Source: an uncultured Synergistales bacterium | GTDB lineage: Bacteria > Synergistota > Synergistia > Synergistales > Aminobacteriaceae | Reading direction: 5' to 3' | Assembly: GCA_905233215.1 (NCBI GenBank) | Contig: CAJODC010000018.1 | Coordinates: 1 to 50,559, forward strand | DNA: 50,559 nt | Shown: one piece after another, positions 23,664 to 40,614 of the stretch | Layout of the letters: each line of letters begins with the position of its first letter | Numbering within the stretch: the first letter of the stretch is position 1 | Program-made: the position numbers and the translations under genes | The notes under the pieces: model-generated | Told to the model about the DNA's origin: nothing | The model's database searches: none | What the model saw: only the letters and a program-made list of their open reading frames with translations

Positions 23664-23726
23664 CTGCTACGTAAAAAGTGTAATATTGTGCTGTGTACAC
23701 TCTTTCGAGTTTTCCTCGTTCTTTCC
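23664..23726. repeat. 63-bp repeat, identical to the end of the element at 36731
   Basis: These 63 bases, beginning CTGCTACGTAA, are identical to 36731-36793. They directly follow the stop codon of the minus-strand secreted-protein gene. In that direction they contain AGTGTA...TACACT followed by TTTTT, so the repeat may also act as a terminator. Only one end of the 211-bp element is present, so it is a truncated copy or an independent use of the same sequence. Confidence 0.9.
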
Positions 23727-24341
23727 TTAATCGTTCTTTCTGAACGCTTCGAGGACTACATCACCGCTGAAACCTTTTGCGCTCATGCGCTGATAGCCGA
23801 CAGCAATTCCGCCGTCTATGATAACAGGTCTCTCAAAAGGGATAGCGATACGCTTTTCGCTTACGTCAAAAGATTCGTAGCCGCCTTTAGCGATCATTGA
23901 GAGAGCTGAAATATCCCTATCGGAGTGTTCGCGCACTGAGCTTGTAGCAACTACTTTCTCATTAGATGATGACGACATGTTGACCGGGAAAGTTGAAGAC
24001 ATGTAGTCGGTGTAGCTGACGTAAGTCCCTGCCGATGATGAGCCGATAGAAAAATCCTTGTTGAAGACAACGCCGTTTTCCGTGAAGTCATAGAAGCCCG
24101 CTGTCAGTGTGTAGGAGCTTTTATCACTTTCGTTAAACTCAGCGTTGAGGATCATGAGAGAATCTTTCTGCATTGAGATGTCGCCTGACGTACGGTTTGT
24201 AACATGCCTGATTATGTCGGGTATCTGACTCAATGGCAGAGGGTTTTGCCCCGTGCTGTCAGGAACGATTACCGCTTGGCTCGTCCCTGAGCCGAGAAGA
24301 ATGAGGAGTGTCAGCAGTAACGCACAAAACTTGTGTTTCAT
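23727..24341 (-). CDS. Secreted protein of unknown function
   Basis: A 204-residue protein with a signal peptide (KHKFCALLLTLLILLGSGTSQA). The rest has alternating beta-type segments and Ser-rich turns; no known motif is seen. The ATG at 24341 was chosen because it starts the signal peptide; an in-frame TTG 12 codons upstream is possible, and neither has a strong SD. The gene ends exactly where the 63-bp repeat begins. Confidence 0.55.
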   Translation of the reverse strand: MKHKFCALLLTLLILLGSGTSQAVIVPDSTGQNPLPLSQIPDIIRHVTNRTSGDISMQKDSLMILNAEFNESDKSSYTLTAGFYDFTENGVVFNKDFSIGSSSAGTYVSYTDYMSSTFPVNMSSSSNEKVVATSSVREHSDRDISALSMIAKGGYESFDVSEKRIAIPFERPVIIDGGIAVGYQRMSAKGFSGDVVLEAFRKND

Positions 24342-24444
24342 TACAAATTCATTCTTGATTAAAGAAAATTTTTCCAATTATGTTATTTTATAACAGAAAA
24401 GTGAATGATATTATTTTTTAATAATTAACCTGAAAGGAGTTTTT

Positions 24445-32366: not shown

Positions 32367-33424
32367 TTACTTCTCCAAGTCGTCAACAAGTACCTTCGTC
32401 AACGCAGGGTCAAACGTCAATGAAACTTTCTCGCCTTCGTCCCAGATTTTTTTGACATCAGGGTTATCAATCTGTACGAGAACGTTGCCCAAGTCCGTTT
32501 TAACCCAAGTCTCTACGCTGTTGCCGAGATAGATATTCGCCGTAACAACTCCGTCTTCAACACCCTTTCCCGGTTCACCGACAGAAAGCGACTCAGGTCT
32601 GGCCATGACCAACGCTTTGTCGCCAGCCTTGAGGGATTTCGCCCATCTCGGAGCGGTGAAAGTCCTTTCACTTCGCACGGGAAGAATGCCACCTTCCCAA
32701 CAAAGCCCGCAACAAATGTGTCAACTGGATCCCTATAGATGTCGCTCGGCGTTCCTATCTGGATAATGTGTCCGAGCTTCATCACTATGATTCTGTCAGA
32801 CAAGCTCATAGCTTCCACCCGGTCGTGAGTAACATACATGGCCGTTATTCCGAGCGATTTCTGTAACCGCCGAATTTCTACTCTCATCTGTTCACGGAGC
32901 AGTGCGTCCAAGTTCGACAAAGGCTCATCGAGTAACAGCACTGACGGTTCAACAATCAGGCTTCTTGCGAGGGCGACTCTCTGCTGCTGTCCTCCTGAAA
33001 GTCTTGAGGGCGGACGTTTCCCCATTTGTCCAAGCCCTACCATTTCGAGAAATTTTTGAACCTTTGTGTCGATTTCGTTCTGAGGAATTTTTCGGAGCTT
33101 CAGACCGTAACCGACATTCTCGGCAACGTTCATGTGAGGGAATAGTCCGTAGCTCTGGAATACCATCGCTGTGTCCCGCTTGTTGGGGGGCGTGTTCGTA
33201 ACGTCATTATCCCCGATCATGATTTTTCCTGACGTTGGCTGTTCAAATCCTGACAGCATTCGCAGAATCGTTGACTTTCCACAGCCTGAAGGACCGAGAA
33301 GCGTTACCAGTTCACCGGGCTCAAGCCTGAATGATACTCCCGCAACTGCTGCTACGTCCTGCCCTGACTGTGGATCACGGAATATCTTTTTTATGTTGTC
33401 AAATGTTACTGACTTACTCGCCAA
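32367..33424 (-). pseudogene. Iron-type ABC transporter ATPase, frameshifted
   Basis: The first frame (32513-33424) encodes a complete nucleotide-binding domain: Walker A GPSGCGKST near 41-49, Q-loop VFQSYGLF, signature LSGGQQQR, Walker B LLLDEP and H-loop THD. After GFVGKVAFFP (about 32690) it loses homology. The C-terminal TOBE-type part continues in a second frame to 32367 (RTFTAPRWAKSLKAG, then VMARPE). At least one base was lost or gained, possibly with a small deletion. The ATPase core may still be made and work without its regulatory tail, so loss of transport is not certain. ATG start at 33424. Confidence 0.82.
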
Positions 33425-35721: not shown

Positions 35722-36723
35722 TTACTTTTCGGGAGCAGTTGAAATTTCCCTGTTCCAGCGTTCAAGCAGACGTTCTTTGTTGGCTGCGTCCCACTGGTCG
35801 TCCTGATTAACGAGCTTCATGCTTGTGAGTGAAAATCCCGTCTCAGTCGGCGTGGCTTTGTCCGACAACGGAATGACGTACCATTTCGCTATTGTATCCA
35901 TTGCCTTCTGACCGAGTACCCAATCATAGAGCTTCTTCGCGTTCAACTGATCGGGACCGCCCTTGAGGATTGACATTGAAGCTGTCTCAAAGCCTGTACC
36001 GTCAGAAGGGATAACGATTTCAATCTTCGCGCCCTCACGCTGTAATTTAATCTGGTCGTGAAGGTAGCCGATCGCTATCGGAATCTCACCGAGTGCGCAG
36101 GATTTGCCCGGTGCTGAACCTGAGCGTGTGAACTGTTCAACAGACTTGGCCAGCTCCTTGAAGTAGGCAAACGCTTTGTCTTCATCACCGCCGTTGATTC
36201 TGATAACGGTGGTAATCATGTTGTAGGCCGTGCCTGACGTGCTTGGGTGAGCGACTCGGATTTTCTTAGCGTACTCGGGCTTGAGGAGGTCTGCCCAGCT
36301 CTTTGGCATTTCGAGGCCGAGTTCCTTCGCTCTTTCCGTGTTCATGCAGAACGCTATCGGTCCGACATAAAGTCCGGTCCAAAAATTTTCGGGGTCTCTG
36401 TACTTTGAGGGAATGCTTCCAGCAGCCCTTGAACGGTAAGGCGTTGAAAGTCCTCGCAGCTTCGCCTCAATATGCTGAGTGCCTACACCGCCGACCCAGA
36501 TTGACGCCTGCGGGTTAGCCCTCTCAGCCTCAAGACGTGCGATCGCTTCACCGCCTGACAGCCTTACCCATTCAACTTTGATGCCCGTGTCAGCCTCGAA
36601 AGCGTCAAATAACGCCTTCGCTAACGGCTCTTCCATCGTGGTGTAAGCCTTGACGGACTCGGCAGCAGAAGCCATGACTGCAAACATCATGACCATTACG
36701 AGAGCAATGACAAATTTTTTCAT
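35722..36723 (-). CDS. ABC transporter substrate-binding protein (FbpA-like)
   Basis: A 333-residue periplasmic protein with a signal peptide (KKFVIALVMVMMFAVMASAAE) and the type 2 binding-protein fold of the iron/thiosulfate family (VKAYTTMEE, WVGG, HPSTSGTAYN). Such proteins usually capture ferric iron, but phosphonate or polyol ligands are possible. The ATG is preceded by CAGTAGCACA, with no SD: the likely original site AAAGGAGGAATAAT lies beyond a 211-bp element at 36942-36960. Confidence 0.85.
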   Translation of the reverse strand: MKKFVIALVMVMMFAVMASAAESVKAYTTMEEPLAKALFDAFEADTGIKVEWVRLSGGEAIARLEAERANPQASIWVGGVGTQHIEAKLRGLSTPYRSRAAGSIPSKYRDPENFWTGLYVGPIAFCMNTERAKELGLEMPKSWADLLKPEYAKKIRVAHPSTSGTAYNMITTVIRINGGDEDKAFAYFKELAKSVEQFTRSGSAPGKSCALGEIPIAIGYLHDQIKLQREGAKIEIVIPSDGTGFETASMSILKGGPDQLNAKKLYDWVLGQKAMDTIAKWYVIPLSDKATPTETGFSLTSMKLVNQDDQWDAANKERLLERWNREISTAPEK

Positions 36724-36730
36724 TGTGCTA

Positions 36731-36941
36731 CTGCTACGTAAAAAGTGTAATATTGTGCTGTGTACACTCTTTCGAGTTTTCCTCGTTCTTTCCGCATTTC
36801 TGCGACATTTCCTGCCCCCGTTCGCTAATTCTACTAAGGTTTGTACGGCAGTCCAGAGGCTTTAACTTCCCCCCTAGCCGGAGGTAGCCCAATTTCTCAG
36901 GTTTGGTGATGCCTGTCCAGCACTCTGACATTACGTAGCAG
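36731..36941. mobile_element. 211-bp element with 11-bp terminal inverted repeats
   Basis: CTGCTACGTAA at 36731-36741 is the exact complement of TTACGTAGCAG at 36931-36941. The first 63 bases are identical to 23664-23726. No transposase is encoded, and a target duplication of more than one base is not seen. It therefore looks like a MITE. It sits between a good SD on the minus strand and the fbpA-like ATG. Family unknown. Confidence 0.7.
36734..36931 (-). CDS. Open frame carried by the 211-bp element
   Basis: A 65-codon frame starts ATG just inside one end of the element, 16 bases after the displaced AAAGGAGG, and stops 10 bases before the fbpA-like ATG. The product (rich in Lys, Cys, Asn) is not recognised. 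It may be a chance frame, but its position would allow ribosomes to enter at the SD and reach the next start codon. Confidence 0.25.
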   Translation of the reverse strand: MSECWTGITKPEKLGYLRLGGKLKPLDCRTNLSRISERGQEMSQKCGKNEENSKECTQHNITLFT

Positions 36942-37101
36942 ATTATTCCTCCTTTATCATTTTGTCAAGGTGCTTTTGGGTAACACTTTACATGACAATT
37001 TCAAATATTTTTAGAAGCTAGACACATCTCCTCCTGAATATGATTTTGAAAAAAGATTGATTGAAATATTTTAGACCTTCAACGGAAAAATAGCTACATA
37101 C

Positions 37102-39370: not shown

Positions 39371-40614
39371 GTGAACTACTCCCCCTTACGGTTATGGGAG
39401 CTTCCTAATTCAACGAGGCTGCGCCGCGATGTTCTGCCAGCGTCTTACGTCCTCTCCAAAGGCGTAAATTTCCTGCGTCCCACAGGTATTTCTTTTACTC
39501 AGCAATATCATGTTACGCGCCGCGTTGATGTCTCGGTCTTCTCTATATCCACATGAGCATTCATATACTCTATCTGCTAGGGTTATGTCCTTGTTCAGCT
39601 TTCCGCACTCTGGACAGTATTTCGTAGTTGGCTCTCTTGATGACAAAACTGTTACACGCTTGTGTTTTATCAGTTTCGCTTTTATTAACCCTAATACTGA
39701 ATGCTGCACTGTCCGGCCGAACAAGCCCTTATGCCAGCCTGTTAGATTTTCATCCTGCATCTCGTTAATCTTTGATATGCTCTCTGTAACAACTTCCTCG
39801 CTTTGTACCGATTGCTTGAACCCTTTTTACGCCGAGCTATTAACCGCTGGCATTTCTTCAGCCGTTCACTTTCTTCAATCTGTACTTGATATTTCATACC
39901 CTCCGATGTCGTTATTGTCGTTTTTATTCCCATATCTATCCCGATTTCGGGCTTACATTTCTTCGTCTCACCTCCCCTATTCTGGTAAGTCGTTATTGCT
40001 AGATAATAGCCATCGGGAAGATTAAGCAGCTTGGCATTTGCAAAATCTAAATTAGGTATATTCCAGAACTGTTTAGCTCCCCTAATTCGTATACGTTCCT
40101 TGAAGCCCTGAAGCCCTATGTGATTCTCATCGTAAAACCTGTATGTTACTCGATGTTGCTGAAGATTGATTGATATGATTATGTTTCTTCAGGGCGGCTA
40201 ATCCTTTAAGACTGTGCTTTATGCCCTGTACCACAGACTGCTTCATCTGCGAGCCTAAATATTCAAGCTCATGTGTAACAGGCTGTTTGTCTTTGTCTAG
40301 TCCGTGAACTGTCCGAATTGATGTATCGTAGTCGTTAATATTATGTTCATGTGTGAAAGCCAGCGCATCATTATACAGCCATTTAGCCTCAACAAAAAGC
40401 ATTTTGAGGTGAACTCTTTGTGCTTCATTCAGGTGAGAGATGTCTATCTTCATACGATACACTCGGCAGATTTGACTTTTGCGTTTTTCTCTGGTCTGTC
40501 TGCCTTGTTCGCGTATACGGTTATTCTTGGCTAATCTCTCTTCTTCTGTCATATGGATATTATATCTTAACAGCGCAATTCATCTCTCACTTATAGAAGT
40601 AGGAGTCTTCTTGC
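39371..40614 (-). mobile_element. TnpB (IS605/IS1341-type) element, decayed
   Basis: The element is bounded by subterminal hairpins rather than inverted repeats. Left end (40573-40614): GCGCAA/TTGC with an inner stem of the form CTCCTACTT/AAGTGAGAG. Right end (39371-39400): CTCCC/GGGAG hairpin followed by TTCAC. It carries only the tnpB remnant, without tnpA. The left-end hairpin closely matches that at 50472-50515. Exact ends are inferred. Confidence 0.8.
39410..40552 (-). pseudogene. tnpB: TnpB RNA-guided nuclease, broken
   Basis: Three frames on the minus strand make up one TnpB. Part 1 (to about 40160) has RMKIDISHLNEAQR and LFVEAKWLYNDAL and ends at KHNHI. A tandem AATCAATC follows; removing four bases joins it to INLQQHRVTYRFYDENH, then KQFWNIPN and GIDMGIKT with the first RuvC Asp. 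A second break after LLQRAYQ, with about 20 residues missing, leads to MQDENLTGWHKGLFGR, the zinc finger KYCPECG...CSCGY and DRDINAARN with the last RuvC Asp. TnpB nucleases use a transposon-end RNA guide; this copy cannot be full length. Confidence 0.9.

Follow-up and report, generated by a model that had tools for sequence, protein, structure and literature searches.

At positions 36731–37027 (minus strand), the 50,559-nt stretch of DNA analyzed here (the window) carries a 297-bp sequence that is almost certainly a non-autonomous IS607-type element. Judged by its sequence, it combines transposon ends with a RAGATH-18/TnpB reRNA, a guide-RNA scaffold, and is inserted exactly after the AGGAG of a Shine–Dalgarno sequence (SD). 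In the reading that we favor, with a probability of about 0.57, it is a solo reRNA transposon that resides in SDs, possesses an SD of its own, and would bridge the distance from this SD to the start codon of its host gene by a helix, P1.

Extent and Insertion Site of the Element

The preliminary description had delimited a 211-bp element at 36731–36941 with perfect 11-bp inverted ends (CTGCTACGTAA and TTACGTAGCAG), directly preceded by AAAGGAGGAATAAT and followed, 7 nt past its end, by the ATG of an fbpA-like gene. All of these features are present, but the 211 bp represent only the 3′ part of the element. The sequence upstream is also common to the copies, and because filled and empty sites rejoin at AGGAG, the complete element as defined by these sites and by the alignment of copies spans 297 bp, including an 86-bp left end (36942–37027, minus strand) that is kept among copies. 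It consists, in order, of the left end, an internal SD, the 5′ arm of P1, the reRNA, and the right end. The left end features a AAAGTGTTAC motif, an approximate mirror of ATTACACTTTTT in the right end. Both ends form imperfect AT-rich inverted repeats, as in IS607-type elements, and comparison of filled with empty sites revealed no target-site duplication. Genes for tnpA and tnpB are absent from the window element. Where the 211 bp recur, they form the right-hand portion of mobile DNA and do not belong to a larger gene.

The host gene encodes an fbpA-like solute-binding protein (35722–36723, minus strand; Pfam SBP_bac_6), the ATG of which follows the right end after 7 nt. Its SD, AGGAGGAG (37028–37035, minus strand), terminates in the AGGAG that serves as target or TAM directly left of the element. 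In 29 orthologous sites without the element, the fbpA leader typically reads CAGGAGG-9 nt-ATG (in one of the 29, L148, an upstream ATG was picked automatically). Rejoining the flanks of the window element (left, CAGGAGGAG; right, TAGCACA-ATG) yields AGGAGG-9 nt-ATG. The same is seen at rpsK, which is filled in one genome (AGGAG, element, GTAATCAAAAAGTG) and empty in others (AGGAGGTAATTACAAAGTG). The original proposal for this locus, that the element separates an SD from the start codon, thus holds and is the rule for the whole element family, whereas the SD itself had been misassigned: AAAGGAGG (36948–36955, minus strand), then taken for that of the host, is internal to the element, and the 29 element-free sites identify AGGAGGAG in its place. 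The dN/dS of fbpA is about 0.03, and some of the other host genes, for example those of ribosomal proteins, are essential; the host genes are therefore very probably translated. The neighboring fbpC-like ATPase gene (32513–33424, minus strand) appears frameshifted at its C terminus.

Copies and Their Placement before Start Codons

We searched the source genome and 40 relatives with the 211 bp and found 15 matches in the source genome, further ones in nine congeneric genomes, and none in other genera. A wider search of the order returned matches in 1 of 59 genera, again a single genus. This recurrence within the source genome and the genus shows that the element is not a chance sequence. Named records that contain the right end are metagenome-assembled genomes (MAGs) of Synergistaceae or Synergistales, many from ruminant foreguts. 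The other genomes compared are mostly fragmented, and many copies lie at contig ends; in the source genome, contigs C16, C24, C25, C33, C44, C47, C49, C56, and C59 end in or beside copies of the element family. The window itself contains a truncated right-end relic of 63 bp (23664–23726, minus strand), 100% identical to the end of the complete element, which is located directly after the stop codon of an open reading frame (ORF) at 23727–24377 and about 150 nt before groES.

Most copies are directly preceded on the left by AGGAG; a few show AGAAG, CGGAG, or no clear motif. Downstream, an ORF of at least 85 codons starts 5–14 nt after the right end in 31 of 35 solo copies, the gene starts being inferred from ORFs. 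By comparison, 23 of 103 AGGAG sites are similarly placed (Fisher p = 3e-12), a baseline that is drawn from the window only. Selection against intragenic insertions may produce the same bias as targeting. When all right ends found are counted, 45 of 57 are placed before an ORF start. The hosts include rpsK (S11), rplS (L19), yidC, and genes for KARI- and PurH-type domain proteins. They are unrelated to one another, and the element is present or absent at orthologous genes.

Guide-RNA Scaffold and TnpB Relatives

The core of the reRNA (36779–36859, minus strand) matches RAGATH-18 in Rfam with 22.9 bits, below the gathering cut-off of RF03064 (44.9 bits). Relatives whose right end is identical or nearly so, however, reach about 54 to 62 bits (54.4 for L009). 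Within the genus, 31 of 43 genomes contain RAGATH-18, 30 of them with a score above the cut-off. RNAs of this family serve IS607 TnpB nucleases as guide-RNA scaffolds. Tests of 22 strains gave AGGAG as the TAM in 18 and GAGGG in four; AGGAG is also the published TAM of ISFba1 TnpB (PMC11061315). AGGAG is itself an SD sequence, and the placement of 31 of 35 solo copies 5–14 nt before ORF starts accords with this.

Several elements with the same right end still bear tnpB. Their TnpB proteins comprise 399–412 amino acids, end 83–152 nt before the right end, and match ISFba1 TnpB (PDB code 8IAZ) with an E value of 7e-121. They retain Asn-61, Asn-62, Lys-80, Lys-83, Asn-121, and Asn-122, the contacts of the AGGAG duplex. 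The general guided_TnpB model scores above its cut-off and the IS607-specific NCBIfam model below (172 versus 350 bits), so that the designation “IS607-type” is based on the match to 8IAZ, the ends, and the target. The source genome encodes a single TnpB of the ISFba1-like type, which has lost ∼19 residues, including Asn-61 and Asn-62, runs off its contig, and adjoins a TnpA remnant. Genes for the IS607 serine recombinase TnpA score above the cut-off in 8 of 43 genomes; the source genome has the remnant only.

The tnpB-bearing elements examined in the genus that share this right end (L199–L203) possess neither the internal SD nor the 5′ arm, and such copies precede genes such as argB and murC. 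Their tolerance indicates that the SD–arm device is not strictly required.

A decayed IS200/IS605-type TnpB, broken into several ORF pieces (PF07282, PF01385), lies nearby at 39410–40552 (minus strand), upstream of a phosphosugar mutase-like gene. We rejected it as the origin of the element, none of whose sequence occurs there; RAGATH-18 likewise gave no match within this remnant at the gathering threshold. Other RAGATH-18 subtypes with different right ends (TATCGTAGCG; TTTTTATAAGTCTTCTGTAACGG) exist in the genus (L109, L110, L124, L125, L130, and L131), and some of these copies also lie just before start codons.

Internal SD and Complementary Arm

The element's own putative SD, AAAGGAGG, precedes the 5′ arm of P1, CTGCTACGTAA (36931–36941, minus strand), which is complementary to the terminal right end, the 3′ arm TTACGTAGCAG (36731–36741, minus strand). 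Each of the 34 copies for which upstream sequence is available has a purine-rich SD (AGGAGG or near) 6–7 nt upstream of the arm. As copies were chosen by right end and arm (≤1 mismatch) and not by the SD, this count is independent. The mean column majority amounts to 0.91 for the SD block and 0.96 for the arm, compared with 0.57 just upstream and 0.72 in the linker. Arm and right end change together, as seen in the pairs CTGCTACGT/ACGTAGCAG and CTGCTACAT/ATGTAGCAG within the genus and CTGCTACTG/CAGTAGCAG in a second genus, G096.

The copies fall into two classes with respect to promoter-like boxes. Those of class 1 feature TTGACA, a 17-bp spacing, and a −10-like hexamer, mostly TAATCT; in the window, TTGACA, a possible −35 box, is located at 36963–36968 and TAATCT at 36940–36945 (minus strand). 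Class 2 copies lack TTGACA and keep the SD, and a promoter alone is therefore insufficient to explain the conservation upstream of the arm. Nevertheless, transcripts from a class 1 promoter would start downstream of the SD, which counts against bridging.

In G096, which belongs to the same family, another RAGATH-18 type is represented by 12 right ends, 11 of which are found 8–14 nt before an ORF. The exception (L272) carries its own purine tract, and its next ATG, at a distance of 15 nt, falls outside the set limit. In 11 copies, the decayed tnpB genes of this genus (L261–L273) contain AGAAAGAAGGTGAAA(C/G) and, next to it, CTGCTACTG, which is complementary to the right end CAGTAGCAG. By eye, this stretch resembles the class 2 segment AAAGGAGGTAAAATCTGCTAC, and the sequences suggest that the SD–arm segment may descend from a piece of tnpB. 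The arm lies within the decayed tnpB, and the purine tract reads AAGAAGG, not AAGGAGG, which again counts against bridging. The 11 copies keep the SD–arm-like segment despite very different deletions.

Fold of the RNA

A seven-helix model accommodates 34 aligned copies with 95.5% paired cells. On four of the five measures, covariation over the whole fold was higher than in any of 500 shuffles; on the fifth, 4 of 500 shuffles reached it. P1 shows 98.4% paired cells in the 34 copies, a value partly built in by the choice of copies. It contains one compensated pair, in three related class 2 copies; at the same pair, three other class 2 copies (L078, L080, and L088) change the arm without a matching change of the right end. 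In thermodynamic folding, no more than 17 of 35 copies gave P1 a probability >0.5, and part of the internal SD was often paired. A pseudoknot-type pairing, PK2, is proposed between a GGCUA loop and UAGC of the right end; it is nearly invariant, and covariation accordingly speaks neither for nor against it. Both P1 and PK2 would draw on one set of 3′ nucleotides in the right end, so that the guide-RNA fold and the translated fold should exclude each other.

Proposed Mechanism

Through its AGGAG target motif, the element lands in SDs, so that AGGAG and the start codon of the host are parted. The 20 nt immediately following the right end, which span this codon, would then become the guide; in the window, this predicted guide region, deduced from RAGATH-18 reRNAs (PMC11061315), lies at 36711–36730 (minus strand) and contains the fbpA ATG. 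From what is known of the family, TnpB supplied in trans would be expected to cut the empty allele and thereby favor retention of the element.

In the read-through mRNA, P1 may close over the ∼200-nt reRNA and draw the internal SD toward the AUG. The effective SD–AUG distance would be about 13 unpaired nt in the window (6 + 7) and about 16 nt typically; the latter exceeds the usual spacing, which is a further point against bridging. The bridged SD would restore translation of the host gene. That P1 indeed brings the element's SD near the AUG and so keeps the host gene translated is a proposal we make tentatively. Slightly bolder is the extended model, in which an SD-TAM guide-RNA transposon carries a portable translation bypass and, through competition of P1 with PK2, a single transcript alternates between the roles of host mRNA and TnpB guide.

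The most serious competitor, doubtful though possible, retains the same element and position and dispenses with bridging. Translation of the host genes would then dispense with an SD and could rely, for instance, on an internal promoter together with the U-rich right end; the purpose of the internal AGGAGG and the arm would be transposition, reRNA transcription, or reRNA folding. The TTGACA-17-TAATCT arrangement in most class 1 copies fits this view, as do the weak prediction of P1 in half of the copies and the tnpB-bearing copies of the genus, which precede real genes without SD and arm. It does not explain, however, why conservation is higher in the SD block than beside it, why this block persists without a −35 box, why the arm covaries with the right end, or why AGGAGG, which a promoter spacer does not need, is there at all. 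Much less probable is a domesticated regulatory leader, in which the reRNA fold would have become a cis-acting switch of host genes and ceased to be a transposon. Such a leader would agree with the strongly conserved, covarying fold and the uniform placement before start codons, but hardly with presence and absence at orthologous genes, unrelated hosts that share no common pathway, and tnpB-bearing relatives with the same ends.

Self-splicing would offer another way to account for the tolerance of insertions in essential genes: in IStrons, where an IS607-type element is coupled with a group I intron (PMC4227781), the element leaves the mRNA, and here the SD would be rejoined to the ATG. We consider this very improbable, since searches gave no group I intron in the window at Rfam thresholds or in six related loci at E values up to 5, and no other known RNA family at the thresholds used, and the reRNA already accounts for the conserved fold. 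Least credible of all are the two earlier interpretations, a knock-out of fbpA or coupled translation through a 65-codon frame (36734–36931, minus strand). This frame is open in the window copy, yet among 35 copies just three (the window, L015, and L018) have it, or a similar frame, continuing as far as the right end, and it is broken or absent in nearly all copies, for which reason we dropped it as a gene. A knock-out is at odds with the purifying selection on fbpA and with copies that precede essential single-copy genes such as rpsK.

Relation to Known Systems and Significance

The element shares with ISFba1 (PMC11061315; PDB code 8IAZ) the reRNA core with its flanking hairpins, the TnpB of its relatives, the AGGAG target, a guide directly 3′ of the right end, and possibly PK2. 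It differs in lacking tnpA and tnpB and in having gained its own SD within the element, together with an arm that matches the right end by complementarity; placement between an SD and a start codon is not mentioned for ISFba1 (PMC11061315). Like MITE-type derivatives, it is short, present in multiple copies, devoid of a conserved ORF, and bounded by ends common to protein-coding relatives, but in contrast to these it retains a complete structured guide-RNA scaffold and an SD. With IStrons (PMC4227781), it has in common that an IS607-type element would reduce the cost of insertion at the RNA level; the group I intron is missing, and the proposed bridging would take the place of splicing. A precedent for bridging is known from genes 38 and 25 of T4, where RNA structure shortens the SD–AUG spacing from 22 to 5 nt and from 27 to 11 nt, respectively (PMC3014915). 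Whereas those are short structures of the gene's own leader, the present case would involve a mobile 200-nt RNA with its own SD. Our search of the literature, of incomplete coverage, returned no matching account of SD-targeted TnpB or solo reRNA elements, and we provisionally regard SD targeting and the SD–arm device as undescribed so far.

If correct, our reading would account for the persistence of a transposon at sites where translation of essential genes is initiated, and would tie the target motif of an RNA-guided nuclease to the ribosome-binding site. In other bacteria, too, elements with an AGGAG TAM are then predicted to occupy SDs. The helix between arm and right end would provide a sharp and inexpensive test case for structure-bridged initiation, and bridging would constitute a second solution to the problem of harmless insertion, beside that of the self-splicing IStrons.
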